Assembly (NCBI RefSeq): GCF_000373925.1
Contig: NZ_KB892742.1
Coordinates: 1 to 57,173 of the forward strand
Origin: Actinopolymorpha alba DSM 45243
Lineage (GTDB): Bacteria > Actinomycetota > Actinomycetes > Propionibacteriales > Actinopolymorphaceae
DNA: 57,173 nt
Direction of reading: 5' to 3'
Under the pieces are notes generated by a model, which worked only from the letters and a program-made list of their open reading frames with translations, made no database searches and was not told the DNA's origin. This document shows positions 3 to 18,162 of this stretch, in pieces. The position numbers were made by a program, and so were the translations under genes. Positions within the stretch are counted from its first letter, which is position 1, and each line of letters starts with the position of its first letter.

Positions 3-356
3 GGACAACTGTTGAGCCTGCACCCCATGGCGCAACGATTCCTCCGCGGACTCCCCGCAGAACTCGTGCAGTCACTCAACCAACGCTGCACCTGGATGCT
101 CTGCCGCCGCCCAGCCATCAGCTGCGACCTCGACCACACCAAACCGTACGCTCAAGGCGGCGAAACCTCCGTGGACAACGTGGCACCGCTATGCCGACGC
201 CACCATCGGGTGAAGACCGAGGGCGACTGGAAGGTCGAACAAACCAGCCCAGGCCACCTCAGGTACACCGACCCGCACGGACGGAAGTATGAGGTGACCC
301 CACCACGCCTCACCGACCCCGTAGAACCCGACGACCCCGACCCCCCACCTTTCTAG
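3..356 (+). CDS. C-terminal part of a 13E12/DUF222-family HNH endonuclease (cut by window edge)
   Basis: The reading frame is open to the left edge, so only the C-terminal part is visible. It has the HNH signature of the 13E12 repeat family: a cysteine-containing segment, then CDLDHTKPYAQGG, then an asparagine and CRRHHRVKTEGDW. The D-H pair and the final H-H supply the metal-binding beta-beta-alpha fold. The tail ends in an acidic, proline-rich run and PPF, much like the PIPF end of the second family member at 23995-25468. Members are usually about 400-500 residues, with an N-terminal DUF222 region that would lie outside the window. The family is multicopy in many actinobacteria and its biological role is unsettled. 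A TTG at 12 and an ATG at 27 lie in frame but are probably internal. Confidence 0.8.
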   Translation, partial: GQLLSLHPMAQRFLRGLPAELVQSLNQRCTWMLCRRPAISCDLDHTKPYAQGGETSVDNVAPLCRRHHRVKTEGDWKVEQTSPGHLRYTDPHGRKYEVTPPRLTDPVEPDDPDPPPF

Positions 357-389
357 CCAGGGCGGAAAGAAGGGGACAAGGAAACAAGA

Positions 390-434
390 CGGCAGGCTCG
401 AAACCCTTGAAAGAAGGGGCTGTCGAGCCTGCCG
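390..434. repeat. 12-bp inverted repeat, possible terminator of the HNH gene
   Basis: CGGCAGGCTCGA at 390-401 is exactly complementary to TCGAGCCTGCCG at 423-434, with a 21-nt loop. It starts 34 bp after the HNH stop codon. No T-run follows, so it could be a U-less actinobacterial terminator or an end of the insertion-sequence debris that follows. Confidence 0.55.
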
Positions 435-4772: not shown

Positions 4773-4822
4773 CACCTCATGGATGGGGTCACGGCTTCTT
4801 GATCAACCGGGCCGTCAGCGGT

Positions 4823-4872
4823 GACTTGGCGGAGGTGTCTCGGCATAGAAGCCGAGACACCTCCGCCAAGTC
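4823..4872. terminator. Perfect 22-bp hairpin, probable bidirectional terminator
   Basis: The 22-base arm at 4823-4844 (beginning GACTTGGCGG, ending TCTCGGC) is exactly complementary to 4851-4872, with a six-base loop ATAGAA. It lies 50 bp after the polymerase stop and between two convergent genes, so termination is the simplest reading. The stem is unusually long and perfect for a terminator, and no T-tract follows on either strand. Confidence 0.6.
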
Positions 4873-5069
4873 GCCTCCCGCTACCTTCACGATGCCGCGA
4901 CCTGTCGGCGTGAAGGTTCTTGAACAAGCCTCGATGTGAGACAGCGGCGACCTCACGCGCCCCACCATGCAAGGCCAATTGGGCATGCCTCGAGGGTCAA
5001 CGAGCAGGGGTCCCTGGTATGAAAGCTTTCTGAATAAGCTCGGCAGCCGCGCGTGGGCATGTGGGCAAA

Positions 5070-5084
5070 GCCCCGAGAGGGGGC
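5070..5084 (-). terminator. Short GC hairpin directly after the reductase/hemerythrin gene
   Basis: GCCCC at 5070-5074 pairs with GGGGC at 5080-5084 around a GAGAG loop. It sits immediately downstream of the minus-strand stop codon at 5085. It is short, and only its position argues for it. Confidence 0.35.
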
Positions 5085-5912
5085 CTACGCGTCGAGGATC
5101 GGGATCAGCTGCTCCTCCTCGTAGGCCAGATGGCGTTCCAGCTCGTCCGTGAGCCGTTCGACTTCGGGCAGCACCAGCAGGGGATCCGCGCCCTCGGTGG
5201 AGATCGCCTTTTGCAGGTCGTCGAGGAGGGCCGCGATCTTCTGGTGCTCCTCGCGCAGCCGGTCCAGGGTCGGGGCGAGTGCGGGGTGGCGCTCGGCAAT
5301 GGCCGGGAACCACCCGCCGTCCTCACCGGTGTGGTGGTGATGCAGCCCTTGGCAGACGGTCAGGCAGTTGACCCGGAGTTGGGCGCCCAGGCTGGGGCCC
5401 GACTCGGCGAACTCCTTGCGGATCAGGGCGAGCTCTCGCCGGAACGCGTCGTGGATCAGCTTGAGGGCCGCACCCAACGACGTGGCGTTCGGGCGTAGGC
5501 CCCCGACTGACTCCAGGCCGACCACGGGGATGACGCGCCTCGTCTTGGCCTGGTAGTCGGCCCAGCCGGAGTCGGCCTCGACCGCACGGGCGAAGACGCG
5601 GTCGCGTTCGGCGCCCTCCAGGACGGTGGCCTGCGCCTCGTAGGTGAAGGCCCCGACCTCGACCGTGACGCGGGGATTGGCGACCAGGTTGTGGAACCAC
5701 GCTGGATGGTTCGGTGCGCCAGCGGCGGAGGCGATGACCAGGCTTCGTTCGGCGCCGTCAGGAAGGTAGCCGAGCGGGGTCGTGTGCGGCGCACCGGACC
5801 GCGCTCCAGTGGTGGTCAACAGCAGCAACCGGGCTCCTTCGAATGGACCCCCGACCTGCCCGCCGTTGGCGCGGAACTCCTCGATGATCTGCTGGTTGAA
5901 ATCGTTCGGCAT
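5085..5912 (-). CDS. Fusion of a deazaflavin(F420)-dependent nitroreductase domain and a hemerythrin domain
   Basis: This 275-residue protein has two domains. Residues about 1-125 are a DDN/PF04075-type split beta-barrel, recognisable from GPFEGARLLLLTTTGARSG, then PLGYL, APNHPAWFHNLVANPRVTVE and the closing WADYQAKTRRVIPVV. Family members bind F420 (or FMN) and reduce quinones or nitro compounds. Residues about 150-275 are an HHE hemerythrin four-helix bundle, with histidines in LIHDAF, CQGLHHHHTGED, LREEHQKI and ELERHLAYEEEQ. These are suited to a di-iron site that binds oxygen or senses iron or redox state. The start was set at the ATG before PNDFNQQ, where the domain begins; GGAG lies about 13 bases upstream. 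An 18-bp palindrome lies 28 bp upstream of the start. Confidence 0.85.
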   Translation of the reverse strand: MPNDFNQQIIEEFRANGGQVGGPFEGARLLLLTTTGARSGAPHTTPLGYLPDGAERSLVIASAAGAPNHPAWFHNLVANPRVTVEVGAFTYEAQATVLEGAERDRVFARAVEADSGWADYQAKTRRVIPVVGLESVGGLRPNATSLGAALKLIHDAFRRELALIRKEFAESGPSLGAQLRVNCLTVCQGLHHHHTGEDGGWFPAIAERHPALAPTLDRLREEHQKIAALLDDLQKAISTEGADPLLVLPEVERLTDELERHLAYEEEQLIPILDA

Positions 5913-5940
5913 TCTTGTTTTCTTCTCCAGGATTGGTGAT

Positions 5941-5958
5941 CCCGCGAACGTTCGCGGG
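5941..5958. promoter_or_regulatory. 18-bp perfect palindrome, candidate operator
   Basis: CCCGCGAACGTTCGCGGG is a perfect palindrome, 29-46 bases upstream of the start of the minus-strand reductase/hemerythrin gene. The position suits a repressor or activator site for that gene. It is not the actinobacterial LexA box, which needs GAAC-N4-GTTC. The cognate regulator is unknown, and none is adjacent. Confidence 0.5.
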
Positions 5959-6125
5959 CATGAGGAAACAGCCCGATGGGCAAAGCGCATGGATACGTCG
6001 CGCGAAAATGCGCGGAAACGTAGAAGGGGCGGGCCTCTCACCCACCCGGCACTCACGCCCTGGCCGGGTGACTCTCTCGCTCTTGGCCCACGGCCGACCC
6101 GGCAGTCACACTGTGGACCCTACTG

Positions 6126-9100
6126 TCATGAATCGGCCAAGGCAACGTTGTGGCTGGAGGTGACGGCGTCGGCGAGTCGGCGAACCCGCTCGGCGTGGGC
6201 GTCGTGACCGATCACGACCGGTGGTTCGTTGTACGGCATCGCGTCCGAGCTCCGGCGCAGCTTGATGTACTCACCGCACGCGTCGATGGCGTACGGCTCC
6301 ATGTCGTCCTGCAATGCTCCGACCACCGTGATGCCGTGCGACTCGCCGATCTGGCGGAACAACGCGACCGCCTCCCGCCGGTGCTCCTTGCCGAGGTTGC
6401 GGCCGAGCTCGTCGAGCACCAGGTAGAGGTTGGCCCCGCCAGCACTGGCGAGCGCGGCGGCACAGACCAGCTTGACGGCCTTCTCGTCCATGAGCGCGGT
6501 GTTGGCCCGCCGGTTGTACGACACGGGATTGTGGCCCTCGGCCCGGCGCCACCGCGGGACTGCCCGCCAGCGCCACTCCTGCTCCGGATCGGCCGGCGCC
6601 TCAGGCGTCGGGTAGTCCAGCGTCGCGCCGTACCCGCCGTACGCCCGGTCCAGCTCGTCGAAGTACTCCGCGACCCTCTGCAGCCGTGAACGGATCGCCT
6701 TCGTGACGGTCGCCCGGCCGATCTGCGCGGCGCTCGCCGCCTCAGCGACCCCCTTCTGTGCCGCTTCGAAGTCGGCCCGCCGGGCGGTGCGCTGGGACTC
6801 GATCTGCTGCCGCTGGTGACGTTCGTACTCCTCCTGCTGGCGGAGGTAGGACCCCAGCCCCTGGCTCAGCCGGTCGAACGTGCGGAGCTGGCGTTCGGCC
6901 GGGGTCCCCTCGCCGTCGCGGCGGTACGTCAGGTCGAGGCGCAGCTGTTCGGGCAGGTCGGGGTCGTTGACCCCCTGCGGGAACGCCGCGCGCAGTGCCT
7001 CAGTCAGGGCGCCCTCCGAGGCGTGCGACCAGGCGTCGGCGTCCCAGGCCTGCTGCTGGGGGTCGAGGGTGAGCAGGCGTTCCTGGGCGCTCTCCTCGGA
7101 ACTGCCCCAGGCGGTGCGGCGGGCGTCGAGGTCGAGGGCGGTCCGTTGGTCGGTGAGCTCGCCGGCCCGTTTGCGGGCCTGGAACCGCAGCTCGGCGTAC
7201 CGATCGCGTTCCTTCGTCAGCAGGTCGATCTGGAGCTGGCGGTTTTCGACCCGGGTGCGCAGCTCCTGGAAGACCTTGTCGGCGCTGGATCGCTGGGGTT
7301 CGAACGCCAGCTCCTCATCGGCGATCTCCTCCAGCCGCTGTCGGAGCCGGTCGACGGACTCCCGGAGCGCGGCGGCCTCCTCGACCGAGCGGGCCGCCGC
7401 CAACCGGCGCTGGGCCGCGGTGCGCAGGCCCGTCGCCCGGCGTACCTCCTCGTTGGCCGACTCGACCGCGGCCGCCGCGAACTCGGCGCGGGCCGCCCCG
7501 GCCCGCACCCGCGCCTCGCGTCCGGTCATGGGGTCGGTGAAGCCGCCGATCACGACGATGTTGGTACGCCGGTCGACCACGCGGTGCGGGTCCTGGGCGG
7601 CGGACACGTCGGCGCCGAGTGCGGCGAGCAGGTCGGGCAGCGCGAGCGGCGTGTCCTGGGCGACGGATTCGTCCGAGGGCACGAGCACCGAACCGGGATG
7701 GTCGGAAAGGGCCGCCACGGCGGCGTCGAGATCGGCCGCCGCGACCACCAGGGCGTCGCGGTAGGGCCACACGGCTGGCTCGTAGAGTGACCGCTCGGCC
7801 GGCCCCAGCGTGAGCGCGTCGAGCAGGCCGACCGCGGGGATGCCGGCGGCGGCGAGCGCGGCGAGCTGTTCCGGTGCGGCGGACCGGCCGGTCTCGGCGG
7901 CCCGCAGGTCGGCCTCGGCCGCTGTCAACTCGCTCTTGGCGCCGCCGACGGCCTCCTGGGCGCCGGCGAGGACCGCCTCGGCGTCGGCCAGCTCCCGCTC
8001 CGCGGCGTCGGCGTCCCGGCCGTCCGCGTCCCGGCCAGCTTCGGTGAGGGTGTTGATCCGGATCCGGAGTTCGTCGAGCTTGCTGGAGGTGACCGCCTGC
8101 TCCTGGCCCAGCGCGGTGATCTGCTGCTGGACGCTCGCCAGCGCCTTGCGGGCGTCGGCCAGGTCGCGGTCGAGCTGGTCGTCGCCGAGTTCTGCGATCT
8201 GGGCGTTGACCGTGGTGATGTTTCCGCTGGCTTCGGCGAGGAGCCGCTGCTGCTCGTCGAGCTCGGCCTGAAGACGCTGGTCTTCCTCGGTGCCGTCGAC
8301 GAGAAGCTTGGCGGCGCGGGTACGCCAGTGCTCGACGGCGGTGGCCAGCTCCGCCCGGGCGCGGTCGCGCCGGTCAAAGGTCACCAGCAGCGCGCCCGCG
8401 TCGTACTCCCACTCGGTGAGGCGGTCGAGTGCCTCGGCGGCCTTGGTGCGTTCGGCGTGCTCGTCGGCGCGGGCCTTGCGTTCGGCCTCCAGCTCGCGGT
8501 CGAGGCCGGTGAGCGCGGCGATCGCGGCGAAGATGCGTTCGGGGCCTATCTCGTTGAGGGGCTGGGAGAGCAGGTTGGTCGCCACCCGGCTGCGTACGGA
8601 CGTCGAGAGGAACGACACGCAGCGCACGCGGTTGCCGTAGAGAACCCGCCCGAGGTCCTTGGCCACGAAGTCTCGCCGGCCCGCGGACTTCGGGAGCTGC
8701 TGCCAGTGGTCGTCGGCGAGGCGGACCCGCTCGGCCTCGGACGCCGCCGTCGACATGTGGATGCCGCGGGTCCACCGCAGCTGCAGGTGCGGCGCGTCGA
8801 CGTTCACCCGCAACCACACCGTCAAGGCGTCGTTGACATCCTCGTCCCGCGGGTCGGCGAAGACGCCGACGATGTAGCCATGGTCCGCGCTCGCCCAGTG
8901 GTTGTCCCCCTGGGCGGCGAGTTCGGCGTTGAACAACAGCTCGGCGACCGCCTGCGCGCCCGACGCGAACCTCCACTGCTCGTCACCGAGCAGCGCCGTG
9001 ATCGAGGCGATGAACGACGACTTCCCCGCGCCGTTGGAGTCCTTGGGTCCCTGGCCCGCGACGACGAGCAGCGTGCCGGGCACGATCGGGACCGGATGCG

Positions 9101-9194
9101 TGGACAGCCGGGAGATGTTGACCGCCTGGACCGCGACCAGGGTGCGGTCGCCGATGATGTCGACGGCGTCGTCGCGGTGCGGCGTACTCGTCAC
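6126..9194 (-). CDS. SMC/MukB-like coiled-coil ATPase of a condensin-type operon
   Basis: This is a 1022-residue ABC-type ATPase with SMC architecture. Walker A is GQGPKDSNGAGKSS (K58) at the N terminus. A long Glu/Ala/Arg/Leu-rich coiled coil covers roughly residues 230-860, broken near 450-570 by a globular hinge-like segment (AAGIPAVGLLDALTLGP onward). The C-terminal head has a degenerate signature region (NPVSYNRRANTALMDEKA), Walker B LYLVLDELGR (D928, E929) and a switch region VVGALQDDM. In MksB, JetC and MukB the two heads pair through ATP while a kleisin and winged-helix dimers bind them. GTG at 9194 is preceded by GAGGTG. It is the last of four coupled genes (13 bp after the previous stop). 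The family assignment is by architecture; I cannot name a database family. Confidence 0.75.
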   Translation of the reverse strand: MTSTPHRDDAVDIIGDRTLVAVQAVNISRLSTHPVPIVPGTLLVVAGQGPKDSNGAGKSSFIASITALLGDEQWRFASGAQAVAELLFNAELAAQGDNHWASADHGYIVGVFADPRDEDVNDALTVWLRVNVDAPHLQLRWTRGIHMSTAASEAERVRLADDHWQQLPKSAGRRDFVAKDLGRVLYGNRVRCVSFLSTSVRSRVATNLLSQPLNEIGPERIFAAIAALTGLDRELEAERKARADEHAERTKAAEALDRLTEWEYDAGALLVTFDRRDRARAELATAVEHWRTRAAKLLVDGTEEDQRLQAELDEQQRLLAEASGNITTVNAQIAELGDDQLDRDLADARKALASVQQQITALGQEQAVTSSKLDELRIRINTLTEAGRDADGRDADAAERELADAEAVLAGAQEAVGGAKSELTAAEADLRAAETGRSAAPEQLAALAAAGIPAVGLLDALTLGPAERSLYEPAVWPYRDALVVAAADLDAAVAALSDHPGSVLVPSDESVAQDTPLALPDLLAALGADVSAAQDPHRVVDRRTNIVVIGGFTDPMTGREARVRAGAARAEFAAAAVESANEEVRRATGLRTAAQRRLAAARSVEEAAALRESVDRLRQRLEEIADEELAFEPQRSSADKVFQELRTRVENRQLQIDLLTKERDRYAELRFQARKRAGELTDQRTALDLDARRTAWGSSEESAQERLLTLDPQQQAWDADAWSHASEGALTEALRAAFPQGVNDPDLPEQLRLDLTYRRDGEGTPAERQLRTFDRLSQGLGSYLRQQEEYERHQRQQIESQRTARRADFEAAQKGVAEAASAAQIGRATVTKAIRSRLQRVAEYFDELDRAYGGYGATLDYPTPEAPADPEQEWRWRAVPRWRRAEGHNPVSYNRRANTALMDEKAVKLVCAAALASAGGANLYLVLDELGRNLGKEHRREAVALFRQIGESHGITVVGALQDDMEPYAIDACGEYIKLRRSSDAMPYNEPPVVIGHDAHAERVRRLADAVTSSHNVALADS

Positions 9195-9207
9195 TGCGTC
9201 ACCTCTG

Positions 9208-9858
9208 TCACGTGGACTCCTCCCTGACCGGGCTGACCCGGCGGGCGCGGACCGCCGCCGCGAGCGGACTGTCGGGCCCGGCGGCGAGGATCAGCTCCTC
9301 CGACAACCGCCGCCGGGCGGCATCGGTGAGCCGGTGGAACTGCGGCCCGGGGATGTATCCCCCGACCGCGTCGCCAGCCGTCTTGACCTGGGTCACCAGG
9401 CCGGCCTGGCGGAGCCGGCGGAGCGCATCCTCGATCTCGCCGACGCCGAGCATGGACCGCTGCAGATCCTCAATGGGCGTGGGGTACGGCGAGAGCCAGG
9501 AATCCTCGGCCAGTTTGTTGCCGGCGCGGGGGATCGCGACGGAGTGGATCAGGACGAGGGTGAGGACCGCGCGGTCGACCTCGGCGCGCCGGCCCGCCGG
9601 GTCGGCGGCGAGGACGGCGGCCACGTCGTCGCGGTAGCCGGACGTCCAGCCGAGGCGGGACCGCACCAGGGTGCGGCCCATCCGGCGGAGGATGTCGTTG
9701 ACCTTGCGGCGCAGGGGCGGCTCGCGGAGCGCGGCGAAGCGGACCTCTGGGACCGGCTCGGCGGCGTACTCGACCGCCATCAGGGCGGCGACCACCTCGG
9801 CGCGTTCGCGCTCGTCGAGGTGGCGCAGGGATCCGAAGACGGGATGGTCGTCGGTCAT
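9208..9858 (-). CDS. Small winged-helix protein, MksE/JetB-like subunit (third gene of SMC operon)
   Basis: This 216-residue, mostly helical protein has a winged-helix segment near residues 130-190: EDLQRSMLGVGEIEDALRRL, RQAGLVTQV, then a wing and FHRLTDAARRRL. Size, position just before the SMC gene and fold suggest an MksE/JetB (KITE-like) subunit, which would bind the kleisin and stabilise the SMC ring. Its ATG overlaps the stop of the preceding gene (ATGA, 9855-9858), so translation is probably coupled and stoichiometry fixed. No catalytic motif is visible. The assignment is inferred from context and predicted fold; primary sequence similarity to known MksE cannot be claimed. Confidence 0.6.
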   Translation of the reverse strand: MTDDHPVFGSLRHLDERERAEVVAALMAVEYAAEPVPEVRFAALREPPLRRKVNDILRRMGRTLVRSRLGWTSGYRDDVAAVLAADPAGRRAEVDRAVLTLVLIHSVAIPRAGNKLAEDSWLSPYPTPIEDLQRSMLGVGEIEDALRRLRQAGLVTQVKTAGDAVGGYIPGPQFHRLTDAARRRLSEELILAAGPDSPLAAAVRARRVSPVREEST

Positions 9859-10496
9859 GGCGACTCCGTGACCGGGCTCGCGTCGGCGGTCGTCTCGCCG
9901 TCCGCCGTGGGCAGGGCGCCCTCTGCCGTGGGCAGGGGAACGCGGCGCAGCGTCTCTCGCAGCGGCGTCAGCGTGTCCTCCGGCCAGGTCGCCACCCGCG
10001 GGCCGAGCCGGACCGTCGCGGTGGTCTCGTCGAGCAGGACCCAGCCCGAGTCGTGGAGGCGCCGCAGCGCACCCAGCGCCCAGCGGGGCAGCAGGTCGGC
10101 CGGGCCGCGGGCCAGCCCGGAAAAGACCGTGGCCACGGACGACACGGAGGCCGTGACGCCGGGCCAGGGCGAGCCGTCGAGGTCGACCCAGCAGCAGCGC
10201 AGGGTCGCGGCCAGGACCCTGCGGGTCTCACCGGCCCGCTCGACCGGCACGGGCGCGACGTCGTACTCCGCCACCAGACTGGGCGTCGCGCCGTCCGGCC
10301 AGGTGCCGAGCAGCCAGCCGTCGCCGGCGGTTTCGGGGTTCTCAGCGATCCCGAGGTCTTCGGGGTGCCCGGGGTTTTCGGCGGGCCCGCCGTTCGCGAC
10401 GTACGCCATCCCGGCCAGCGGCTGGCTGGCGCACTGCGGGCCACGGCTGCGCCAGCGGGCCCAGGCGAGGACGCCGGGGTCGAGGTCGTTCGTCAC
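9855..10496 (-). CDS. Second small winged-helix protein of the SMC operon
   Basis: This 213-residue protein starts with GTG in a GTGA overlap with the kleisin-like gene (10493-10496) and ends in an ATGA overlap with the next gene. The N-terminal half is unique and contains a degenerate proline/glutamate repeat (AENPGHPEDLGIAENPETAG). Residues about 125-185 look like a winged helix: LPRWALGALRRLHDSGWVLL followed by a beta wing TATVRLGPRVATW. The tail is a low-complexity PTAEGALPTADGETTAD segment. It may be a second KITE-like subunit, paired with the 216-residue neighbour as a heterodimer, or a system-specific accessory factor. I do not recognise the family. Confidence 0.55.
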   Translation of the reverse strand: MTNDLDPGVLAWARWRSRGPQCASQPLAGMAYVANGGPAENPGHPEDLGIAENPETAGDGWLLGTWPDGATPSLVAEYDVAPVPVERAGETRRVLAATLRCCWVDLDGSPWPGVTASVSSVATVFSGLARGPADLLPRWALGALRRLHDSGWVLLDETTATVRLGPRVATWPEDTLTPLRETLRRVPLPTAEGALPTADGETTADASPVTESP

Positions 10497-11752
10497 CGGC
10501 GCTTCCCCTTGTCCGGCTCGGTGGTCGCGGCCGGCTCCGTCTGGCGTTCGAACCAACCCCCGCAGCGCCAGGCTGGCACGGCGTCGGGGTGAACCGTCAC
10601 CGGTCCGGTCCAGCGCAGGCGATAGGGCAGGTCCGGGTGGAGATCGGCCGAGGCCAAATCGGCGAGCAGGCGCCGGGCTGTCGGCCAGTCGGAACAGCCG
10701 GTGAGTACGTCCTGCACTGGAGTGCTGTCCGCGCCGCCCAGGACCTCCTCGGCCACCACCCGCAGGCGGCGTGCGGCCGCCTCGTCCTGCCGGTCGAGGT
10801 GCCCTTCGAGGCCGGCGTCGGGGAGGGGCGAACGTGGCGGCGCCGGGCGAGCCGGCTCCGCGCGGGGACTCTCGTCGACGGCGGCCACGATGTCGGCCGG
10901 CGCGTGCCAGGGTGCGGGCGCGTCGAACACGAAGCTTTCGAGCACCGCGGCCAGCCGTGCCGTCGTGGCGGTCTGGGCGAACGTCCGCCACGTCTCGGCG
11001 GGAAGCAGGCTCAGGTTGCGGGTCGTACCCGCGGAGTCCCGCAGTCGCGCGGCGGCCCGCAGCGAGACGTCGCCGTACGCGTAGATCGCGGCCCTCAACT
11101 CGGCACACAGGGGTTCGAGCCTTGGCCAGCGGTCGAGGATCGCGGCGTGCAGGGCTTCGGCGCGTTCGCGGATCTTCTCGCTGCCCCAGAGTTTGGGTGC
11201 GTGCTCGCGGAGGTCCTCGATCTTGCCCGTGGTCAGGCTGGCGAGCTCGATGGTCCAGAGCCGGAACGCCCGGATCAGGCCTTCGGCACTCGCCCGGGCG
11301 TCGTCCTCGTTGGCGTCGGGGTCGGTGAGCGAGAGTTGCTCGAGTGCCAGCAGGCGGTGCATCTCAGACTGGCCGCCGTCCGCCATCATCCGGCGGATGA
11401 ACAACAACCCCACCGCGGACGTGAACGACGCGCGGTAGCGCCGCTGGTGCGGCTTGGGGAAGGTCTCCCGGATCGCGCCCATGCCGCGGAGTACGGCGAG
11501 CCGGCTTTCGAACTCATCCGTACGGAAGCGCCGGCACGCCTCCCGCATCTCCTCGTGTGTCAGACCGTCCTCACCCGCGCGGGCGAACGCACTGAGGAGC
11601 GTGTCTGCCACGTCGACGAGCCCAGGGTCGGTGACGACCGCGCCGCTGTCGCGCGCGAGTGGCGCGAACATCTGGCGGTAGATGCCGAGCACCGCCTCGT
11701 CGGCGAGCACCTCGTCGAGGCTCGGCATGGCGGCGGGACCCGGGCTGGACAT
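10493..11752 (-). CDS. Kleisin-like subunit (MksF/JetA-like), first gene of the SMC operon
   Basis: This 419-residue, mainly helical protein has an N-terminal winged-helix-like region (residues about 25-110, including DGLTHEEMREACRRF and SRLAVLRGMGAIRETF). A long helical middle follows, then a disordered proline/alanine linker near 300, and a C-terminal domain with another winged-helix-like end (DLPYRLRWTGPVTVHPDAVP). This N-terminal WH, helical body and C-terminal WH layout is that of kleisins such as MukF, MksF and JetA, which bridge SMC heads. It opens a four-gene unit in the order kleisin, WH, WH, SMC. An ATG eight codons in (11728) is an alternative start. Sequence-level family membership is not provable by eye. 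Confidence 0.6.
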   Translation of the reverse strand: MSSPGPAAMPSLDEVLADEAVLGIYRQMFAPLARDSGAVVTDPGLVDVADTLLSAFARAGEDGLTHEEMREACRRFRTDEFESRLAVLRGMGAIRETFPKPHQRRYRASFTSAVGLLFIRRMMADGGQSEMHRLLALEQLSLTDPDANEDDARASAEGLIRAFRLWTIELASLTTGKIEDLREHAPKLWGSEKIRERAEALHAAILDRWPRLEPLCAELRAAIYAYGDVSLRAAARLRDSAGTTRNLSLLPAETWRTFAQTATTARLAAVLESFVFDAPAPWHAPADIVAAVDESPRAEPARPAPPRSPLPDAGLEGHLDRQDEAAARRLRVVAEEVLGGADSTPVQDVLTGCSDWPTARRLLADLASADLHPDLPYRLRWTGPVTVHPDAVPAWRCGGWFERQTEPAATTEPDKGKRR

Positions 11753-11820
11753 GGCGCTCTACGGTAAAGGATCGCGCCGACGTCGCGTTCAGGCCGTACC
11801 TCCCGGTGGCCCGCGACCTC

Positions 11821-12372
11821 CTAGGCGCGGTAGTCGTCGAGTCGGTCGTTGACGGTCCGGAGCCCGTGTTCGTCGAGGGGGATCTCGGAGCCCGCGGCTC
11901 CGACCGCGACCGGCCCCACGTCGGCGACCGCGGCCCACGCATCGTTGACCGTACGAGTCCAGAAGAGGACCGGCTGGTTCTCGACGGCAATGGTCTGTGG
12001 CGTCCACTCGGGCGGGGCGAGGTGGTAGGCGAGTTCCGCGGCTCGGTGGTCCTCGTCGAGGAACCCGGCCGACCGCCGCCCGTCAGGGTCCGGCGGGAAC
12101 GCGAGGTCGTTCATGTGCAGGAGGGCCGCCCGCGCCGCGTCCGTGACGTTCGACCTGGGCCGGCCGCCGCGGTGTCGGGCCTGCCACCAGTGCTTGGCGT
12201 CGGTGTGCACGATCACGTGCCCGGCGTTCGGATCACCGTGGCCGAGGCCGACGTGCCAAAGCCGGCCGCGTTCGCTGCCACGCCACCAGTTCCAGACCTT
12301 GAACCAGCGCGGTCCCGTGAACGAGTCGGCAAGACCGTACACGGGAAATGGCGGCGAAAGAGGGGATCCCAT
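11821..12372 (-). CDS. Unknown protein upstream of the SMC operon
   Basis: I do not recognise this 183-residue protein. It is rich in Trp and His: FKVWNWWRGSERGRLWHVGL, GHGDPNAGHVIVHTDAKHWW, then APPEWTPQTIAVENQPVLFW. The C terminus is acidic and ends NDRLDDYRA. There is no signal peptide or membrane helix. The pattern GHGDPNAGHVIVHTD could be a beta-hairpin carrying potential metal ligands, but no known nuclease or hydrolase motif is complete. It shares the orientation of the SMC operon and ends 68 bp before it, so it may be transcribed with it. The start (ATG 12372) is uncertain because the frame stays open to 12546 and no clear ribosome site is visible. Confidence 0.6.
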   Translation of the reverse strand: MGSPLSPPFPVYGLADSFTGPRWFKVWNWWRGSERGRLWHVGLGHGDPNAGHVIVHTDAKHWWQARHRGGRPRSNVTDAARAALLHMNDLAFPPDPDGRRSAGFLDEDHRAAELAYHLAPPEWTPQTIAVENQPVLFWTRTVNDAWAAVADVGPVAVGAAGSEIPLDEHGLRTVNDRLDDYRA

Positions 12373-12606
12373 CCGTTCAGGATGAGCCAGAGCGCGGCGC
12401 CCCGTCAGCCAGTCGGGTGACCCGGGACCCCGCTGCCCCACCGCCTCCGTGCACATGGCGAATTTCCGGAGAAGGCTCATCCAAACCCGTGGCGCCGGCG
12501 ACCTCAGCGAACGTCTCACATAGTGAGCGCCCGGTAAGCCGTCCACTATGTGGCCAGTCTGGGGTCCTCAACGTGGAAGCGCCGCCGTACATCACCAGGC
12601 CAGTGG

Positions 12607-12640
12607 TGGGTTCACCAGGCGCAGGAGCCTGGTGAACCCA
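12607..12640. repeat. 14-bp perfect hairpin
   Basis: TGGGTTCACCAGGC at 12607-12620 pairs exactly with 12627-12640, around a loop GCAGGA. The stem continues outward as CCAG/CTGG after a 3-base bulge. TCACCAGGC also occurs directly upstream at 12592-12600, giving a partial direct repeat. Confidence 0.6.
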
Positions 12641-12706
12641 CTGGCAGCCTCGTGATGGCCGGTCCATCTCAGATTGTGTACAGCGTTCTTCTGGTTCCGG
12701 TCGAAT

Positions 12707-12780
12707 GAAGTTGATCAACGGCGGCCAAACCGGACGGCCGCAGCGGCGAAACGCCCGAACCAGCACCGTTGATCAACTTC
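12707..12780. repeat. 14-bp inverted repeat containing two GTTGATCAAC palindromes
   Basis: GAAGTTGATCAACG (12707-12720) is exactly inverted at 12767-12780, 46 bp apart. Each arm holds the self-complementary decamer GTTGATCAAC, so the pair could be two operator half-units or the ends of a small element. Confidence 0.55.
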
Positions 12781-12842
12781 GCGGATGCGCGGGCCACGGC
12801 GAGGAGCAGTTCTCGTCGCTAGGTGGTGAATCGGGCGAGGCA

Positions 12843-12890
12843 GTGGAGCATTTCCTCATGCGGAGCACCGGCAAAGCTCCGCTGCTCCAC
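12843..12890. repeat. Two-part hairpin upstream of the LLM oxidoreductase
   Basis: GTGGAGCA (12843-12850) pairs with TGCTCCAC (12883-12890), and inside it GCGGAGC (12860-12866) pairs with GCTCCGC (12876-12882). A nine-base bulge separates the stems. It ends about 70 bp before the next start codon. Confidence 0.5.
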
Positions 12891-12963
12891 GCCCGCGCCC
12901 CGCGGCGGCCAGTTGTCTCACGAACCAGACGACTGGCGGCGGATCAATGGGTAGGAGGGTGCT

Positions 12964-13818
12964 GTGGACATCGGTATTGGGCTCCCGAACACCCTGGACA
13001 TCGGCGGGCCGGCGATCGTGGAGTGGGCGCTGCGGGCAGAGGAGCGCGGTTTCAGCGTGCTCGCGACGATCGACCGCATCGTCTATCCGTCGTACGACTC
13101 ATTGACCGCACTCGCAGTGGCAGCCGGAGCGACGTCGAGGATTTCCCTACTGTCAGACATTCTGTTGACGCCGCTGTATCCGCCGGTGTGGTTGGCAAAG
13201 GCGGCCGCGAGCCTCGATGCGATGTCGAACGGCCGGTTGACGTTGGGCCTTGGCGTGGGTGGCAGACCCGATGACTTCGCGGCAATGGGCCGGCCGATGG
13301 AGAAGCGCGGGCGATTGATGGACGAGGCTCTCGACCTCATGCACCGTGCCTGGGCGGGCGATCCGGTCGCTGGCGGGGAGTTCGCGGTCGGGCCCGCGCC
13401 AGCGTCCGGAAACCGGGTCCGCGTGATGATCGGCGGCACCAGCGAAGCGGCGGTACGCCGGACGGTGAAGTACGCAGAGGGGTGGACCGCGGGTGGCGGT
13501 GGACCCGAGATGGCGGCGCCCGTGATCGAGAGGGTGCGACAAGCCTGGCAGGAGGCCGGCCGAGCCGGTACGCCACGGATCTCCGCGCTCGTCTACTTCG
13601 GTTTGGGTGACCCGGACGCCTCGCGCGCGTCGCTGCGCAGCTACTACGGCTTCCTCGGCGACTGGGTGGGAGCGATCGTCGAAGGCGCGATTCGTACGCC
13701 GCAGGCCGCGCAGGACGCCATCCGCGCCTTTGCGGGCGTTGGTGTCACGGAGGTCGTCTTCATGCCGAGCGTTGCCTCGATCGAGGAGGTTGACCGGCTC
13801 GCCGGCGCTGTTCTGTGA
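12964..13818 (+). CDS. LLM-class flavin/F420-dependent oxidoreductase
   Basis: This 284-residue protein is a TIM barrel of the luciferase-like monooxygenase superfamily. Typical blocks are [10 protein letters not shown] at the start, [13 protein letters not shown], the [22 protein letters not shown] strand-helix pair, [21 protein letters not shown], then [20 protein letters not shown] near the C terminus. In actinomycetes such proteins mostly use reduced F420 to reduce or oxidise carbonyl and sugar substrates. The substrate is unknown. GTG at 12964 has TAGGAGGG seven bases upstream. It is the first gene of a plus-strand pair with hutI, but with 160 bp between them, so co-transcription is uncertain. 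Confidence 0.85.
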
Positions 13819-13978
13819 CTGGCGGAGGCGTGCATGTCAGCGTCCGGCGAGAGCGGAGCACATGCGCCGGGAAGAATGCCGGCATGAGCGAGACTCGCAC
13901 GTCGCCGGCAGGGGCGCGGCCGGCAGGGGCGCCGCCGGCGGGGTGGATCCGGCTGGCGGAGTACACCCACGGCGGTGG

Positions 13979-15169
13979 ATGGTGACGTTGTTGCTCGACG
14001 AGATCGGGCTCCTGGTGACGAACGACCCGGGCCAGGGCGACGGTGGGCCGCTCGGCGAGATCCCGGACGCGGCACTGGTCCTCGACGGCGAGCGGATCGC
14101 CTGGGTCGGGTCCCGCGCCACCGCGCCGGCCGCGGATACCGGGATCGGAATGGGTGGGCGCACGGTGCTCCCGGGCTTCGTCGACAGCCACGCCCACCTG
14201 GTCTTCGCGGGCGAGCGGGCGGGGGAGTTCGCCGCCCGGATGGGCGGGCAGCCCTATACCGCTGGCGGGATTCGCTCCACGGTGGAGGCGACCCGGGCCG
14301 CGAGCGACGAGATGCTGCGCGCCGGCGTTGCCCGCCTGGTGGGGGAGATGCGTGCCAGCGGCACCACGACGGTGGAGATCAAGAGCGGGTACGGCCTGAC
14401 CGTACGCGACGAGGCCCGCTCGTTGGCGATCGCGCAGGAGTTCACCAGCGAGACCACCTATCTCGGGGCGCATGTGGTTCCGCCGGAGTACGCCGACCGC
14501 CGCGATGACTACGTGACGCTGGTCTGTCAGGAGATGCTTGACGCGGGTGCGGCGTACGCGCGCTGGGTCGACGTCTTCTGTGACCGGGGCGCCTTCGATG
14601 CCGACGAGACGCGGGCGATTCTCCAAGCGGGCAAGGCGCGCGGCCTGCATCCGCGCCTGCACGCAAACCAGCTCGCGCCCGGTCCCGGTGTGCGGCTCGG
14701 CGTGGAGCTGGGTGCGGCGTCGGTGGATCACTGCACGTACCTGACCGACGCCGACATCGCTGCGCTCGCGGACTCTGAGACGGTCGCGACGTTGCTGCCG
14801 GGGGCGGAGTTCTCCACCCGTTCGCCGTATCCCGATGCGCGCCGGCTGCTCGACGCCGGAGTGACGGTCGCGCTGGCGACGGACTGCAACCCTGGATCGT
14901 CGTACACCTCGAGCCTGCCGTTCTGCGTCGCCGTTGCCGTGCGCGACCTGGGAATGACGCCAGCGGAGGCGGTGTGGTCGGCTACCGCGGGTGGTGCGCG
15001 AGCCCTGCGCCGCGACGACGTCGGTGTGCTGCGGGTGGGTGCGCGCGCGGACCTCGCGGTGCTTGAGGCGCCGTCGTACGTCCACCTGTCTTACCGCCCG
15101 GGTGTCCAGCTCGTGGTCGACGTGTGGAAGGACGGCGAAAGGTTGGTTCCCGGTATCGCTTATAAATAA
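13979..15169 (+). CDS. hutI: Imidazolonepropionase (histidine degradation)
   Basis: This 396-residue amidohydrolase hydrolyses 4-imidazolone-5-propionate to N-formimino-L-glutamate, the third step of histidine degradation. Visible family blocks include [18 protein letters not shown] (metal HxH), [65 protein letters not shown] and [18 protein letters not shown]. All expected metal and substrate residues appear present. The ATG at 13979 is used, with GGCGGTGG just before it. A 33-codon frame (13884-13985) overlaps the start. No other hut genes lie within the window, so hutI is isolated from its pathway here. It converges on the next gene, and the two stops overlap by 10 bp. Confidence 0.92.
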
Positions 15170-15627
15170 GGGCTCGCCTCGACGAGCGCGGCCAGGTTCG
15201 CCAGCGCCATCCGCGTGCCCGTCTCGTTGTCGGCGGCGGGGACGGCGTCGGGGATTCCGTCGTGCACGATCACGACATCGGTGCCGCCATCGGCGTCGGT
15301 GAGCGTCGTCGTCATCGTCATCGTCCCGCGCAGCGCGGGATCCGCGGTCTCGAACTCGAACACCTCGACCACCCGCTCGTTCGGAACGAGCTCCGCGAAG
15401 TGGCCATGGTAGGTATCGGTGTGCGTCGCCGACTTGCCGGTTGGTCCCGGCGCGTCGTAGGTGAGCGAGATCCGGAACGAGCCGCCTTCGCGAGCGTCGA
15501 ACTCGTGGACCTGGCTGCTCATGTCCGCCGGCACCCGCCATTTGGCGATCATGTCCGCATTCACGAGTGCCTGGTAGACGGCCGAAGGCGGCGCGTTCAC
15601 GTGCTGAGAGACCTGCGTCGAGTACAT
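15160..15627 (-). CDS. SRPBCC/AHSA1-family protein
   Basis: This 155-residue protein has the START-like helix-grip fold. The signature opening is [20 protein letters not shown], followed by [10 protein letters not shown], then a beta sheet with SFRISLTYD and [18 protein letters not shown], and a long C-terminal helix [19 protein letters not shown]. Small AHSA1 proteins bind lipids or hydrophobic ligands, or act with co-located regulators. No partner is adjacent here and the function is unknown. The ATG at 15627 matches the conserved N terminus. Confidence 0.85.
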
Positions 15628-15666
15628 GCCACCGACCTTACGGCGAACTCCGGGAACCTCAGCGAC

Positions 15667-16710
15667 TCACGCGGCAGTGACCGTGCGGTAGACCTGGGCC
15701 GTCTCGTCGGCGATCCGGGACCACCGGTGGCGGATCCGCACCCGCTCGTAGGCCGCGACGCCGAAGCCTTCGAGATGGAGCGGGTCCGCCAGCAGGTCGC
15801 GTACGGCCCGGGCCAGCGCCGCCGGGTTACGCGGTGGCACGAGGACACCTGTCGTCCCTTCGATGACCGTGTCGCGGAGCGCGCCGACGTCGGAGGCGAT
15901 GACGGGGGTGCCGCAGGCGGCCGCCTGGAGCGCCACCAGGCCGGTCGCGTCGTACGACGGAGCACACACGACGAGGCAGGCGGACCTCAGCAGGTCGGGC
16001 AAACGCTCCTCGGACACCTGACCGAGAAACCGGACCCGATCGCGCACCCGAAGCCGTTCGGCGAACGTACGCAGGCGATCGGTGACTGCCGGCGAAGGGC
16101 CTTCGGCCAGGAGAAGCTCGGCGTCAGGTATGCCGCGCAGTGCGGCGATCGCGGTGTCGAAGCCGGCCCACTCGACCGGCGGGCCCACAACCAGGAGGCG
16201 CGCGCGGTCCCCCGCGGGGACAGGTCCAGCTTCTGGCCGGAACGCCTCAGTGTCGACGCCGTACGGGACCACCGTGACCTTCGCGCGGGGAGTGCCGAGC
16301 CGGCGGAGCTCCTCCACGGCGTACTCGCAGTGGGCGACGACGTGGTCGGCGTCGTGGCAAACGGCTCGCTCCAGGCGGATGCGGTGATCCGTGTTTTCCC
16401 AGTGTTCCCGGTTTTCGCTGCCAGGGCGTGGCCTCGGACCGAGGCCCTCGAAGCTGTGGACCATCGGCGTACCAGTGCCACGCCGGCCGAGAAGACCAGC
16501 GATGGCCGCCGGCCAGCTCAGGGTGTGTACGACGTCGGGCGGAACGGCCCGCCAGGCGTCCGCGAGTTCCGCGCCGAACTCCGGGAGGCCGGCCAGCAGC
16601 GCATCACCGTCATGGCGCGGGTTGTGGAAGGTGACCTCAAGACCCGCGTCAGCGAGGGCGTCCACAAGATCGGTGTCATGGGCATGCTCGGATACGACAG
16701 CGACTCTCAT
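15667..16710 (-). CDS. Glycosyltransferase, family 4/GT-B type
   Basis: This 347-residue GT-B protein has an N-terminal acceptor domain beginning MRVAVVSEHAHDTDLVDALA. The UDP/GDP-sugar-binding C-terminal domain shows VVPYGVDTEAFRP, RLLVVGPPVEWAGFD, VRFLGQVSEERLPDLLRSA and the donor-binding ExxxxxxxE-like block SYDATGLVALQAAACGTPVI. It is a retaining transferase by family. Donor and acceptor are unknown. It starts five bases after the stop of the sigma-factor gene on the same strand, so the two are probably one transcript. That would place this enzyme among stress-induced envelope or storage glycosylation functions; this last point is inference. Confidence 0.88.
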   Translation of the reverse strand: MRVAVVSEHAHDTDLVDALADAGLEVTFHNPRHDGDALLAGLPEFGAELADAWRAVPPDVVHTLSWPAAIAGLLGRRGTGTPMVHSFEGLGPRPRPGSENREHWENTDHRIRLERAVCHDADHVVAHCEYAVEELRRLGTPRAKVTVVPYGVDTEAFRPEAGPVPAGDRARLLVVGPPVEWAGFDTAIAALRGIPDAELLLAEGPSPAVTDRLRTFAERLRVRDRVRFLGQVSEERLPDLLRSACLVVCAPSYDATGLVALQAAACGTPVIASDVGALRDTVIEGTTGVLVPPRNPAALARAVRDLLADPLHLEGFGVAAYERVRIRHRWSRIADETAQVYRTVTAA

Positions 16711-16715
16711 GAATC

Positions 16716-17522
16716 TCAGCTGGCCTTACGGCGCTGCCGCTGGGTCGGCCACTGAATGGGTTGACCGCTCGGGTCGAAGACGGCTGCCCTGATCAGGCTG
16801 AGCGTGCTGGCGATGAGGCGGGACACGTGCATCTGCGACATCTCGAGCTCCTCGGCGATCTGTCTCTGCGTATGCTCGCCGAAGAACCACAGGACGAGGA
16901 TGTGCCGCTCCCGGGGCGGGACCTCCGCGAGGATCCGGCGGACGGTCTCGCGTTCCTCGACCTGGACAAGCGCTTCGTCCTCCGCACCGATCAGCTCGGC
17001 CAACGACCGGCTCTCGCCGTCGGAGGAGTCGGACGCCGGACTGTCCAGAGAGGTCGCCGAATAGGCGCTGCCGGATTCCTGCGCCTTGATGATCTCCTCA
17101 TCGCGGACGTCGAGTTCGGTCGCCAGTTCCCTGACGGTGGGCGGCCGTTTCAGCTCCGCCGACAGGCGTTCGTTCGCACGGAGCACAGCGTGGTAGAGGT
17201 CGTGCAACGGGCGCGGAATGTGGACGGCCCAGCAGTAGTCCCGGAAATGCCGGCGGATCTCGCCGAGGATCGTGGGTACGGCGAAGGACGCGAAGTGGGA
17301 GCCGCGTTCCGGGTCGAAACGGTTGGCTGCCTGGACCAGACCGAGCATGGCGACCTGGACAAGTTCGTCCATCGGCTCACCGCGACCGGCGTACCTCGCG
17401 GCGAGCTTGCGGGCCAGGCCAAGGTGATCGAGAACCAACCGTGCGGAGCCGTCCGAATCGTGCTCGCTGGCGACCTCCGCGCCGGGCATGTCGACTGCGG
17501 ATGGCATGGTCATCTGCTTCAT
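16716..17522 (-). CDS. RNA polymerase sigma factor, SigB/SigF/SigG family
   Basis: This 268-residue sigma-70 group 3 factor has region 2 (ELVQVAMLGLVQAANRFDPE, then FASFAVPTILGEIRRHFRD), region 3 (RPPTVRELATELDVRDEEII) and region 4 (PPRERHILVLWFFGEHTQRQ, then IAEELEMSQMHVSRLIASTL). The FAVPTILGEIRRHFRD block is diagnostic for SigB/SigF-type stress and sporulation factors, which are usually controlled by anti-sigma and anti-anti-sigma proteins. None of these is adjacent. The ATG at 17522 has AAGGGG directly touching it; the in-frame ATG three codons later (17513) is better spaced and may be the true start. Two copies of a 12-bp repeat lie at the ribosome site. Confidence 0.92.
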   Translation of the reverse strand: MKQMTMPSAVDMPGAEVASEHDSDGSARLVLDHLGLARKLAARYAGRGEPMDELVQVAMLGLVQAANRFDPERGSHFASFAVPTILGEIRRHFRDYCWAVHIPRPLHDLYHAVLRANERLSAELKRPPTVRELATELDVRDEEIIKAQESGSAYSATSLDSPASDSSDGESRSLAELIGAEDEALVQVEERETVRRILAEVPPRERHILVLWFFGEHTQRQIAEELEMSQMHVSRLIASTLSLIRAAVFDPSGQPIQWPTQRQRRKAS

Positions 17523-17524
17523 CC

Positions 17525-17549
17525 CCTTGATCGCTTACCTTGATCGCTT
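17525..17549. repeat. Tandem 12-bp repeat at the sigma gene ribosome site
   Basis: CCTTGATCGCTT occurs at 17525-17536 and again at 17538-17549, one base apart. On the coding strand this puts AAGCGATCAAGG twice, immediately upstream of the start codon, with the proximal copy supplying the Shine-Dalgarno bases. Confidence 0.6.
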
Positions 17550-17691
17550 TCCAGGGGACTCCGCGATCAAACGTCGGCGGACACAGATGGCCCTATGCCG
17601 GACATCAACGCAGGAGCAGACTGCCGCATACCAGGACGAGCCCGACGATCTGGTGCCCGTTCTCAGCGAGCACCACACGCATGGTTTCCCC

Positions 17692-18162
17692 TCAGGACGT
17701 GGTCTGTGCCGCGAACATCCAGCGGTGTTTCTCGAGCTTGCGCAGGAGCTCGATCACCACGTCCTGACTTACCTGGTCGATCTCGTCGAGCGGGCCGAGT
17801 GCCTGCCGGCCCCGGCTGATGGTGGCGTCGATCTGGTCGACGATGGCGCTCACCACTTTGTCGTCGCCGAGGAATCCCTGGTCGAACTCCGGCAGGTTCG
17901 TGGTGGTGGCCACGGCGGCAGGCCGGCCGTCGACCGGGACGTCCAGCGCGATCAGGCGTTCGGCCACGTCGTCGGCGCAGTCGCGTACGTCGTCGACCAG
18001 GGTGTCCAGTTGCTCATGCACCTGGGTGAAATGCCGGCCCTGCACGTGCCAGTGTGCCTGCTTGGCGTTGAGGGAGAGGGCGATCAGGTCGACGAGTACC
18101 GGTTGGAGAAGCCGGCCGACGTCCTTACCGGGTACGGGGATCGGCGGCGTGTGGGCGTTCAC
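17692..18162 (-). CDS. dps: Dps-family ferritin-like DNA-protection protein
   Basis: This 156-residue protein has the Dps four-helix core. The di-iron ligands are in AKQAHWHVQGRHFTQVHEQL (two His at the dimer interface), followed by DTLVDDVRDCADDVAERL and the C-terminal helix VVIELLRKLEKHRWMFAAQT. Dps dodecamers oxidise and store iron using hydrogen peroxide and bind DNA under starvation. The GTG start at 18162 has GGAGGGG seven bases before it. It lies about 170 bp upstream of, and in the same orientation as, a SigB/SigF-type factor, the class that often drives dps; a direct link is only inferred. Confidence 0.92.
   Translation of the reverse strand: MNAHTPPIPVPGKDVGRLLQPVLVDLIALSLNAKQAHWHVQGRHFTQVHEQLDTLVDDVRDCADDVAERLIALDVPVDGRPAAVATTTNLPEFDQGFLGDDKVVSAIVDQIDATISRGRQALGPLDEIDQVSQDVVIELLRKLEKHRWMFAAQTTS

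Follow-up and report, generated by a model that had tools for sequence, protein, structure and literature searches.

Does an operon with the gene order of MukFEB and JetABC, two different small subunits and no JetD nuclease beside it encode a plasmid-restricting defence system or a chromosomal condensin? The operon in question lies on the minus strand at positions 6126–11752 of a 57,173-nucleotide stretch of contig NZ_KB892742.1 from Actinopolymorpha alba DSM 45243, and this whole stretch is called the window below. Its four open reading frames (ORFs) appear to encode, in order, a kleisin-like protein, two small winged-helix proteins and an ATPase of the structural maintenance of chromosomes (SMC) type. 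Reasoning by analogy with characterized complexes, we favour, with some reserve, a non-cutting, MukBEF-like, loop-extruding SMC complex with a MukF-like kleisin and an asymmetric pair of KITE (kleisin-interacting tandem winged-helix element) subunits. Such a complex would have a chromosomal role, would have lost JetD and would have been acquired horizontally in this genome.

The operon and its subunits

The four ORFs, which an earlier note on this DNA had proposed as one operon, are real genes and not chance reading frames, because the same four-gene order recurs across loci. A scan of the genome_contigs collection with the SMC protein gave 41 loci, nearly all in Actinomadura or close genera. 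The full set stands in the same order in 36 of them (one with gene 1 shortened); in the other five the content begins 21–259 bp from a contig edge, with the upstream part beyond it. The order recurs in other families too. All the junctions described in that note were found: a GTGA overlap between genes 1 and 2, an ATGA overlap between genes 2 and 3 and a 13-bp gap between genes 3 and 4. A start codon suitable for the 4-nt overlap of genes 1 and 2 is available in 34 of the 36 loci with gene 1, a count for which the start nearest the end of gene 1 was chosen, biasing it towards a short overlap. Ratios of nonsynonymous to synonymous substitution rates (dN/dS) of 0.05–0.39, across nine pairs and four genes, point to purifying selection on all four; the values for genes 2 and 3 of the pair L110/L112 overlap, because the two genes are fused into one ORF there.

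The four-gene unit looks uncatalogued. By hmmscan, none of its proteins scores above the cut-off of a Pfam or NCBIfam model. Genes 2 and 3 have no match to either collection at E-values up to 10, and the sole match of gene 1 in that range is a sub-threshold one to nSTAND1 (E 0.051). Gene 4 gives only sub-threshold matches, including SMC_N (12.5 bits, cut-off 40) and TIGR02168 (SMC_prok_B; 20.9 bits, cut-off 567), the latter best in the coiled-coil region. The SMC models match gene 4 at residues 237–446, and the hinge is read from layout alone. PADLOC returns no JetA, JetB or JetC match for the four window proteins at E up to 10. It gives weak matches of gene 1 to DrmMI (E 0.021) and of gene 4 to LmuB and mad3, and a match of gene 3 to the Csa3 helix-turn-helix (HTH) model over residues 75–190 (E 7.7e-4). 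An identity as Lamassu was rejected, the LmuB matches being weak and mostly within the coiled coil of gene 4. An ordinary Wadjet of types I–III or MksBEFG was likewise rejected, since the operon has neither a Jet model match nor JetD.

Structure prediction covered genes 1 and 2. The AlphaFold model of gene 1 (36-row alignment; mean predicted local distance difference test score, pLDDT, 62) begins with a winged helix, is helical in its middle part and ends in a winged-helix-like domain. Its first-ranked Foldseek match is 9gm7_C (E 0.021, prob 0.66, 423 columns), a chain of a MukBEF entry that is MukF by its length of 440 residues. Seven further MukF-sized chains from the MukEF or MukF entries 3euh, 3rpu and 1t98 stand in the top 50, and the list also holds many generic winged-helix regulators. 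The model of gene 2 (mean pLDDT 66) contains a confident winged helix within residues 87–185, with pLDDT of 82–94 across the 10-residue blocks from 121 to 180. Here the first rank goes to 8dk1_E from the P. aeruginosa JetABC entry (E 0.0097, prob 1.00, template modelling (TM) score 0.34), which is JetB by its length of 176 residues. The list also includes 8as8_C, 8dk1_F and MukE chains, and plant methyltransferases with E-values equal or similar to that of the JetB chain. For two independent proteins of the operon, the first rank thus goes to the corresponding subunit of one class of complex; a kleisin fold for gene 1 and a first-KITE fold for gene 2 are supported by weak models. In the fold check proposed in the earlier note, MukF therefore leads for gene 1 and JetB for gene 2, both with weak E-values. 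What is supported of its interpretation is an SMC operon whose gene order is that of MukFEB/JetABC and which has two small subunits and no JetD.

Gene 4 is an SMC protein and predicted ATPase with a Walker A motif (GPKDSNGAGKSS, residues 49–60) and a Walker B motif VLDE (D928, E929). Across the loci both motifs are kept, Walker A as GPKDSNGAGKSS and Walker B as DELGRNLG or in similar forms; one or both are missing from partial loci. At the position of the LSGGE signature gene 4 has ALMDE (900–904), the Glu of which lies 24 residues before the Walker B Asp. NTA(L/Q)MDEKAV occupies the signature site in 64 of the 69 loci tallied, and the signature-site pattern is matched in 66, the three exceptions being L101 and two partial loci, L115 and L116.

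Table 1. Features of the operon and of the stretch that holds it (window positions; residues for the domains of gene 1)
Feature	Position	Strand	Description
Gene 1	10493..11752	-	419 aa; kleisin-like subunit (putative MukF/JetA role)
Gene 1 domains	N-terminal winged helix ~43-108; helices 149-241; C-terminal winged-helix-like domain 315-403		predicted, AlphaFold model
Gene 2	9855..10496	-	213 aa, GTG start; first KITE-like subunit (putative JetB/MukE role)
Gene 3	9208..9858	-	216 aa; second small subunit, winged helix in C-terminal half; probable second KITE
Gene 4	6126..9194	-	1022 aa, GTG start; short-armed SMC ATPase (predicted)
12.9-kb stretch holding the operon	4780..17702	.	blastn; missing between two flanking genes in five congeners

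JetD, distribution and proposed horizontal gain

The earlier statement that no JetD follows holds at the window operon, which no JetD adjoins, and a standard JetD does not stand beside most homologues either, so that the refuting condition set in that note came out in the note's favour. Among the 67 related loci with at least 1.6 kb of downstream sequence, a JetD of the type searched for is found in L119 (genome G759) and L114 (G151) only. L115, which is shortened, and the fragment L116 are left out of these 67 loci and of the 28 region loci used below; L120 and L121, apparently the same records as L040 and L033, count among the 28 but neither among the 67 nor in the motif tallies. In L119 and L114 the SMC is followed on the same strand by a gene of 469 or 461 aa, which scores 48.9 bits for JetD_C PF09983 against a cut-off of 22 and 36 bits for DUF2399 against one of 23.4, and which PADLOC calls JetD in both. 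The SMCs of these loci are 29 and 34% identical to the window SMC, and all four operon genes match there. Extended to the family, the claim that JetD is lacking thus stands for 65 of 67 loci but not for these two divergent copies, which make the family a relative of Wadjet whose main branch is without the nuclease. We infer that JetD was lost rather than gained, in a tree whose direction is unrooted. A further ORF in G501 (L116: 9938–11161) matches the JetD profile (E 3.8e-11), overlapping a match to the SMC C-terminus, and lies next to a gene that PADLOC names JetD2; it is a probable relic of a JetD-bearing copy.

Searched over 30 whole genomes, the JetD profile matched four: G759, G151, the genome of the window and, weakly, its congener G396 (E 0.009). 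In 24 of the 26 searched genomes with the main branch there is no match to this L119/L114-type profile, which other JetD types may escape. The other two are the window's own genome, through a gene of its type II Wadjet, and G759, through its second, JetD-bearing copy. PADLOC finds that type II Wadjet complete, JetA2-B2-C2-D2, on contig C106 of the own genome (G000; L132: 1619–9977). A search with PF09983 alone, positive for its controls in 2 of the 14 genomes named for it, found nothing in this genome; the model thus does not detect the JetD2 of that Wadjet. The genome also encodes a canonical SMC, at C35, and the four-gene unit is thus an additional, third complex, without a nuclease. Two other genomes with the four-gene complex are unusual in their canonical SMC: G502 has no TIGR02168 match at 1e-50 and G759 has it in two pieces, which may be a search artefact or partial SMC loss.

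In the class, 29 of 394 genomes gave a match to the SMC profile (that of G501 being a fragment), and in the order 32 of 97, namely the window genome and all 31 sampled genomes of family f117. The phylum draw gave 3 of 396, with the single sequence as with a broader alignment, and the class of G151 gave 2 of 66. The class and phylum draws are samples, and the large profile searches scored as few as two candidates per genome, which second copies can escape. Within the window genus the SMC occurs in one of six genomes and within the window family in one of eight. The operon is thus not a general housekeeping Mks, a possibility raised in the earlier note: it is universal among the f117 genomes sampled but not in the window genus. 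Five of the eight f117 copies fetched are on contigs of 7.6–8.9 Mb and are thus chromosomal. Carriage by phages or plasmids was not found: phages gave no match, tblastn confirmed none of the 328 pattern matches in viral_contigs, and the sole record under plasmids is an 11.85-Mb Nonomuraea replicon.

In all five congeners compared (L153–L157), the sequences that blastn aligns to the two sides of the window stretch, ending at 4779 and resuming at 17703, are only 5–38 bp apart. This empty site is flanked by a DNA-polymerase-A-like gene (up to 4779) and a gene that is Dps-like by eye (from 17703). The intervening stretch in the window is composite: for example, 5087–6124 occurs elsewhere in congener G397 and 13977–15136 elsewhere in several congeners. 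The G397 match stops 2 bp before it would reach the end of gene 4; none of the operon genes was found there. The window SMC is 57–60% identical to f91/Actinomadura-type copies, compared to 41% to the f117 copies of its own order, and the approximately unbiased (AU) test rejects its grouping with f117 (p 0.00012; long branches flagged). The empty place in the congeners and the position of the SMC outside f117 suggest that the four genes were gained horizontally as a unit. The alignments A1 to A6 used in this work have 36, 32, 37, 35, 38 and 13 rows, and the tree has 32.

A chromosomal role appears more likely than defence, given the presence of the operon in 31 of 31 f117 genomes, the purifying selection on its four genes and the lack of a nuclease. 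The strongest alternative, which we regard as unlikely but credible, is an anti-plasmid or anti-mobile-element defence without a nuclease of its own. Such a system would silence or destabilize small circles by extrusion and compaction, or lend its activity to a nuclease from another locus, for instance JetD2 from the type II Wadjet in this genome. The complete type II Wadjet in the same genome, the kinship to JetD-bearing copies and the occurrence in one of six genomes of the genus, on a stretch that the other five lack at that place, all fit this alternative, as does the action of Smc5/6 and Wadjet on circles described in PMC10586767. It is opposed by the 24 of 26 main-branch genomes without an L119/L114-type JetD match and by the uniform presence in f117. 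Most defence systems are not known to be present throughout the genomes of a family. The surroundings also speak against it, since three of four neighbouring window proteins checked have no PADLOC match; the fourth, the DNA polymerase A-like protein, matches RTasPolA (E 1.7e-10).

The proposed KITE pair and mechanism

Gene 3 was read from its alignment, which by eye suggests two successive winged helices. Among the non-significant matches of its C-terminal half in the PDB are HTH regulators. The two small genes had been called unrelated; hhalign and profile comparison indeed give no significant similarity between them, but their C-terminal halves are alike in layout by eye. In 8 of the 28 region loci (L110–L113, L117, L118, L123 and L119) genes 2 and 3 form one in-frame ORF of 391–446 aa that matches both profiles. 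Seven of these loci belong to family f91 (six are in the tree, on one branch), and the eighth, L119, is the divergent second copy of G759 (f117), whose sister locus L114 has the two genes unfused. Two separate fusion events are the simplest reading. The relatives examined have two small-subunit genes or their fusion, where MukBEF/MksBEF has one KITE protein. Fusion on two branches of the SMC tree supports a partnership of the two products, which we therefore propose to be an asymmetric KITE pair on one kleisin.

It is improbable, but worth weighing, that only one of the two is a KITE, acting as a homodimer like MukE, with the other serving as an additional regulator that binds DNA, or as an adaptor or effector that took the place of JetD. 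The lack of significant similarity between genes 2 and 3 would agree with such a division, as would the backing of gene 3, which is at the HTH level only. The fusion, however, is found on two branches and once beside JetD, which suggests a fixed partner rather than a JetD substitute, and both genes are also present in the JetD-bearing copies L114 and L119. A decaying, functionless Wadjet remnant left after JetD loss is very hard to credit: the missing JetD, the non-canonical signature and gene 2 of one locus, L035, which looks frame-disrupted, would agree with it, but the dN/dS values contradict it, as do the tens of genomes in which the genes are intact and their overlaps conserved, and the 31 of 31 in f117.

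In the non-cutting condensin-like complex that we favour, two copies of the gene 4 SMC would be joined by the gene 1 kleisin and the gene 2/gene 3 KITE pair. If it works as MukBEF and JetABC do, the SMC heads would be brought together and apart by the binding and hydrolysis of ATP, the kleisin and the KITE pair would clamp DNA onto the heads, and the complex would reel DNA into loops; it is from this analogy that we infer loop extrusion. Because JetD is absent, the DNA would be folded or tethered instead of cut. The main branch most likely lost the nuclease, since divergent members of the family carry it, and would so have become a chromosomal condensin-like factor in several actinobacterial lineages. 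More tentatively, the operon might represent a further class of chromosome-organizing SMC complex in bacteria beside Smc-ScpAB and MukBEF/MksBEF, marked by an asymmetric KITE pair and a non-canonical signature and derived from a nuclease-dropping Wadjet relative that was fixed in several actinobacterial groups.

Several findings weigh against a condensin-like complex of this kind. Occurrence in one of six genomes of the genus, on a stretch new to its place, is more like an accessory gene than a condensin, and the kinship to JetD-bearing copies also counts against a chromosomal role. A canonical LSGGE-type signature is found in none of the 69 loci tallied, two fragments included. The ABC signature is usually needed for ATP hydrolysis, which may therefore differ or be weak here. 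Searches of the PDB with phmmer and hmmsearch gave no sequence match that backs any subunit, and hhalign against E. coli MukF and MukE found no detectable similarity of genes 1–3. The gene 1 model superposes poorly on 9gm7_C (TM 0.17, root-mean-square deviation 43.9, no global fit), which may be the outcome of a flexible, low-confidence model. Neither gene 1 nor gene 2 has a Foldseek match at E 0.001, and both models have a mean pLDDT in the 60s. The JetD-bearing relatives are few, with two intact loci, so that the family history is thinly based and unrooted.

A single family that holds JetD-bearing copies and a nuclease-less branch universal in the sampled f117 genomes makes a step from defence to housekeeping testable in relatives. 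The operon may also offer a bacterial two-KITE complex for comparison with Smc5/6, and an SMC protein without the usual ABC signature.

Neighbouring genes and comparison with known systems

A survey for a consistent fifth gene, suggested in the earlier note, found none common to the lineages in heuristic gene calls over up to 10 kb of flank; the flanking clusters are lineage-specific and their genes mostly ordinary. One cluster is a gene of ~1100 aa (L028: 7994–11350, and 15 other loci) that is alpha-solenoid-like by eye and that, in 14 of 17 cluster members, follows the SMC gene in the same orientation at a median distance of 25 bp. No Pfam match was found for the one member checked; speculatively, it is possibly a lineage-specific partner reminiscent of HEAT subunits. 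A gene of ~216 aa (cluster c23) follows the operon in eight of eight f117 loci (L094–L101), and one member matches Imm52 just over the cut-off (26 versus 25 bits). Upstream of the operon, some Actinomadura-type loci (L005: 1828–6002; L040: 148–3837) carry genes that are SbcCD-like by eye. In the window, positions 1–440 belong to a repeat family, HNH-like by eye, with at least ~30 copies elsewhere in the genome at 75–94% identity. An element of ~250 bp upstream of the operon (12685–12938) has at least five further genome copies at 83–89%, and inverted repeats lie at 4820–4875 and 12590–12657.

In PMC10586767, PMC10512200 and PMC10123090, JetB is the KITE of Wadjet, MukE a dimeric KITE and Nse1/Nse3 the KITEs of Smc5/6, and the origin of Wadjet is left unresolved. 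We found no report of a bacterial two-KITE family or a JetD-less Wadjet family among titles and abstract openings of the open-access literature.

Compared with Wadjet (JetABCD or MksBEFG, types I–III), the operon shares the kleisin-KITE-SMC order, with JetD last in L114 and L119, and, with a weak E-value, a JetB chain as first match of the gene 2 model. It differs in lacking JetD, here and in most related loci, in having two small subunits where Wadjet has one, in matching no PADLOC Jet model, and in having no LSGGE signature, a motif still present in the type II JetC from this genome. With MukBEF/MksBEF it shares the gene order of E. coli mukF-mukE-mukB, a gene 1 model that resembles MukF with a weak E-value, the lack of a nuclease and a presumed condensin function. 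MukE, however, is one protein where there are two here, E. coli MukB has 1486 residues compared to 1022 for gene 4, and genes 1–3 show no sequence similarity to MukF or MukE. According to PMC10586767, MukBEF replaced Smc-ScpAB, whereas here a canonical SMC coexists with the four-gene unit. Smc-ScpAB is alike in the class of its SMC, kleisin and KITE subunits, but gene 4 falls far below the TIGR02168 cut-off and the true SMC of this genome is the one at C35. Smc5/6 is eukaryotic and has two different SMCs where the operon has one SMC gene, and its Nse1 bears a RING, whereas no RING-bearing subunit is seen here. Even so, Smc5/6 with Nse1 and Nse3 is the system that the operon would resemble in placing two different KITE-type subunits on one kleisin.

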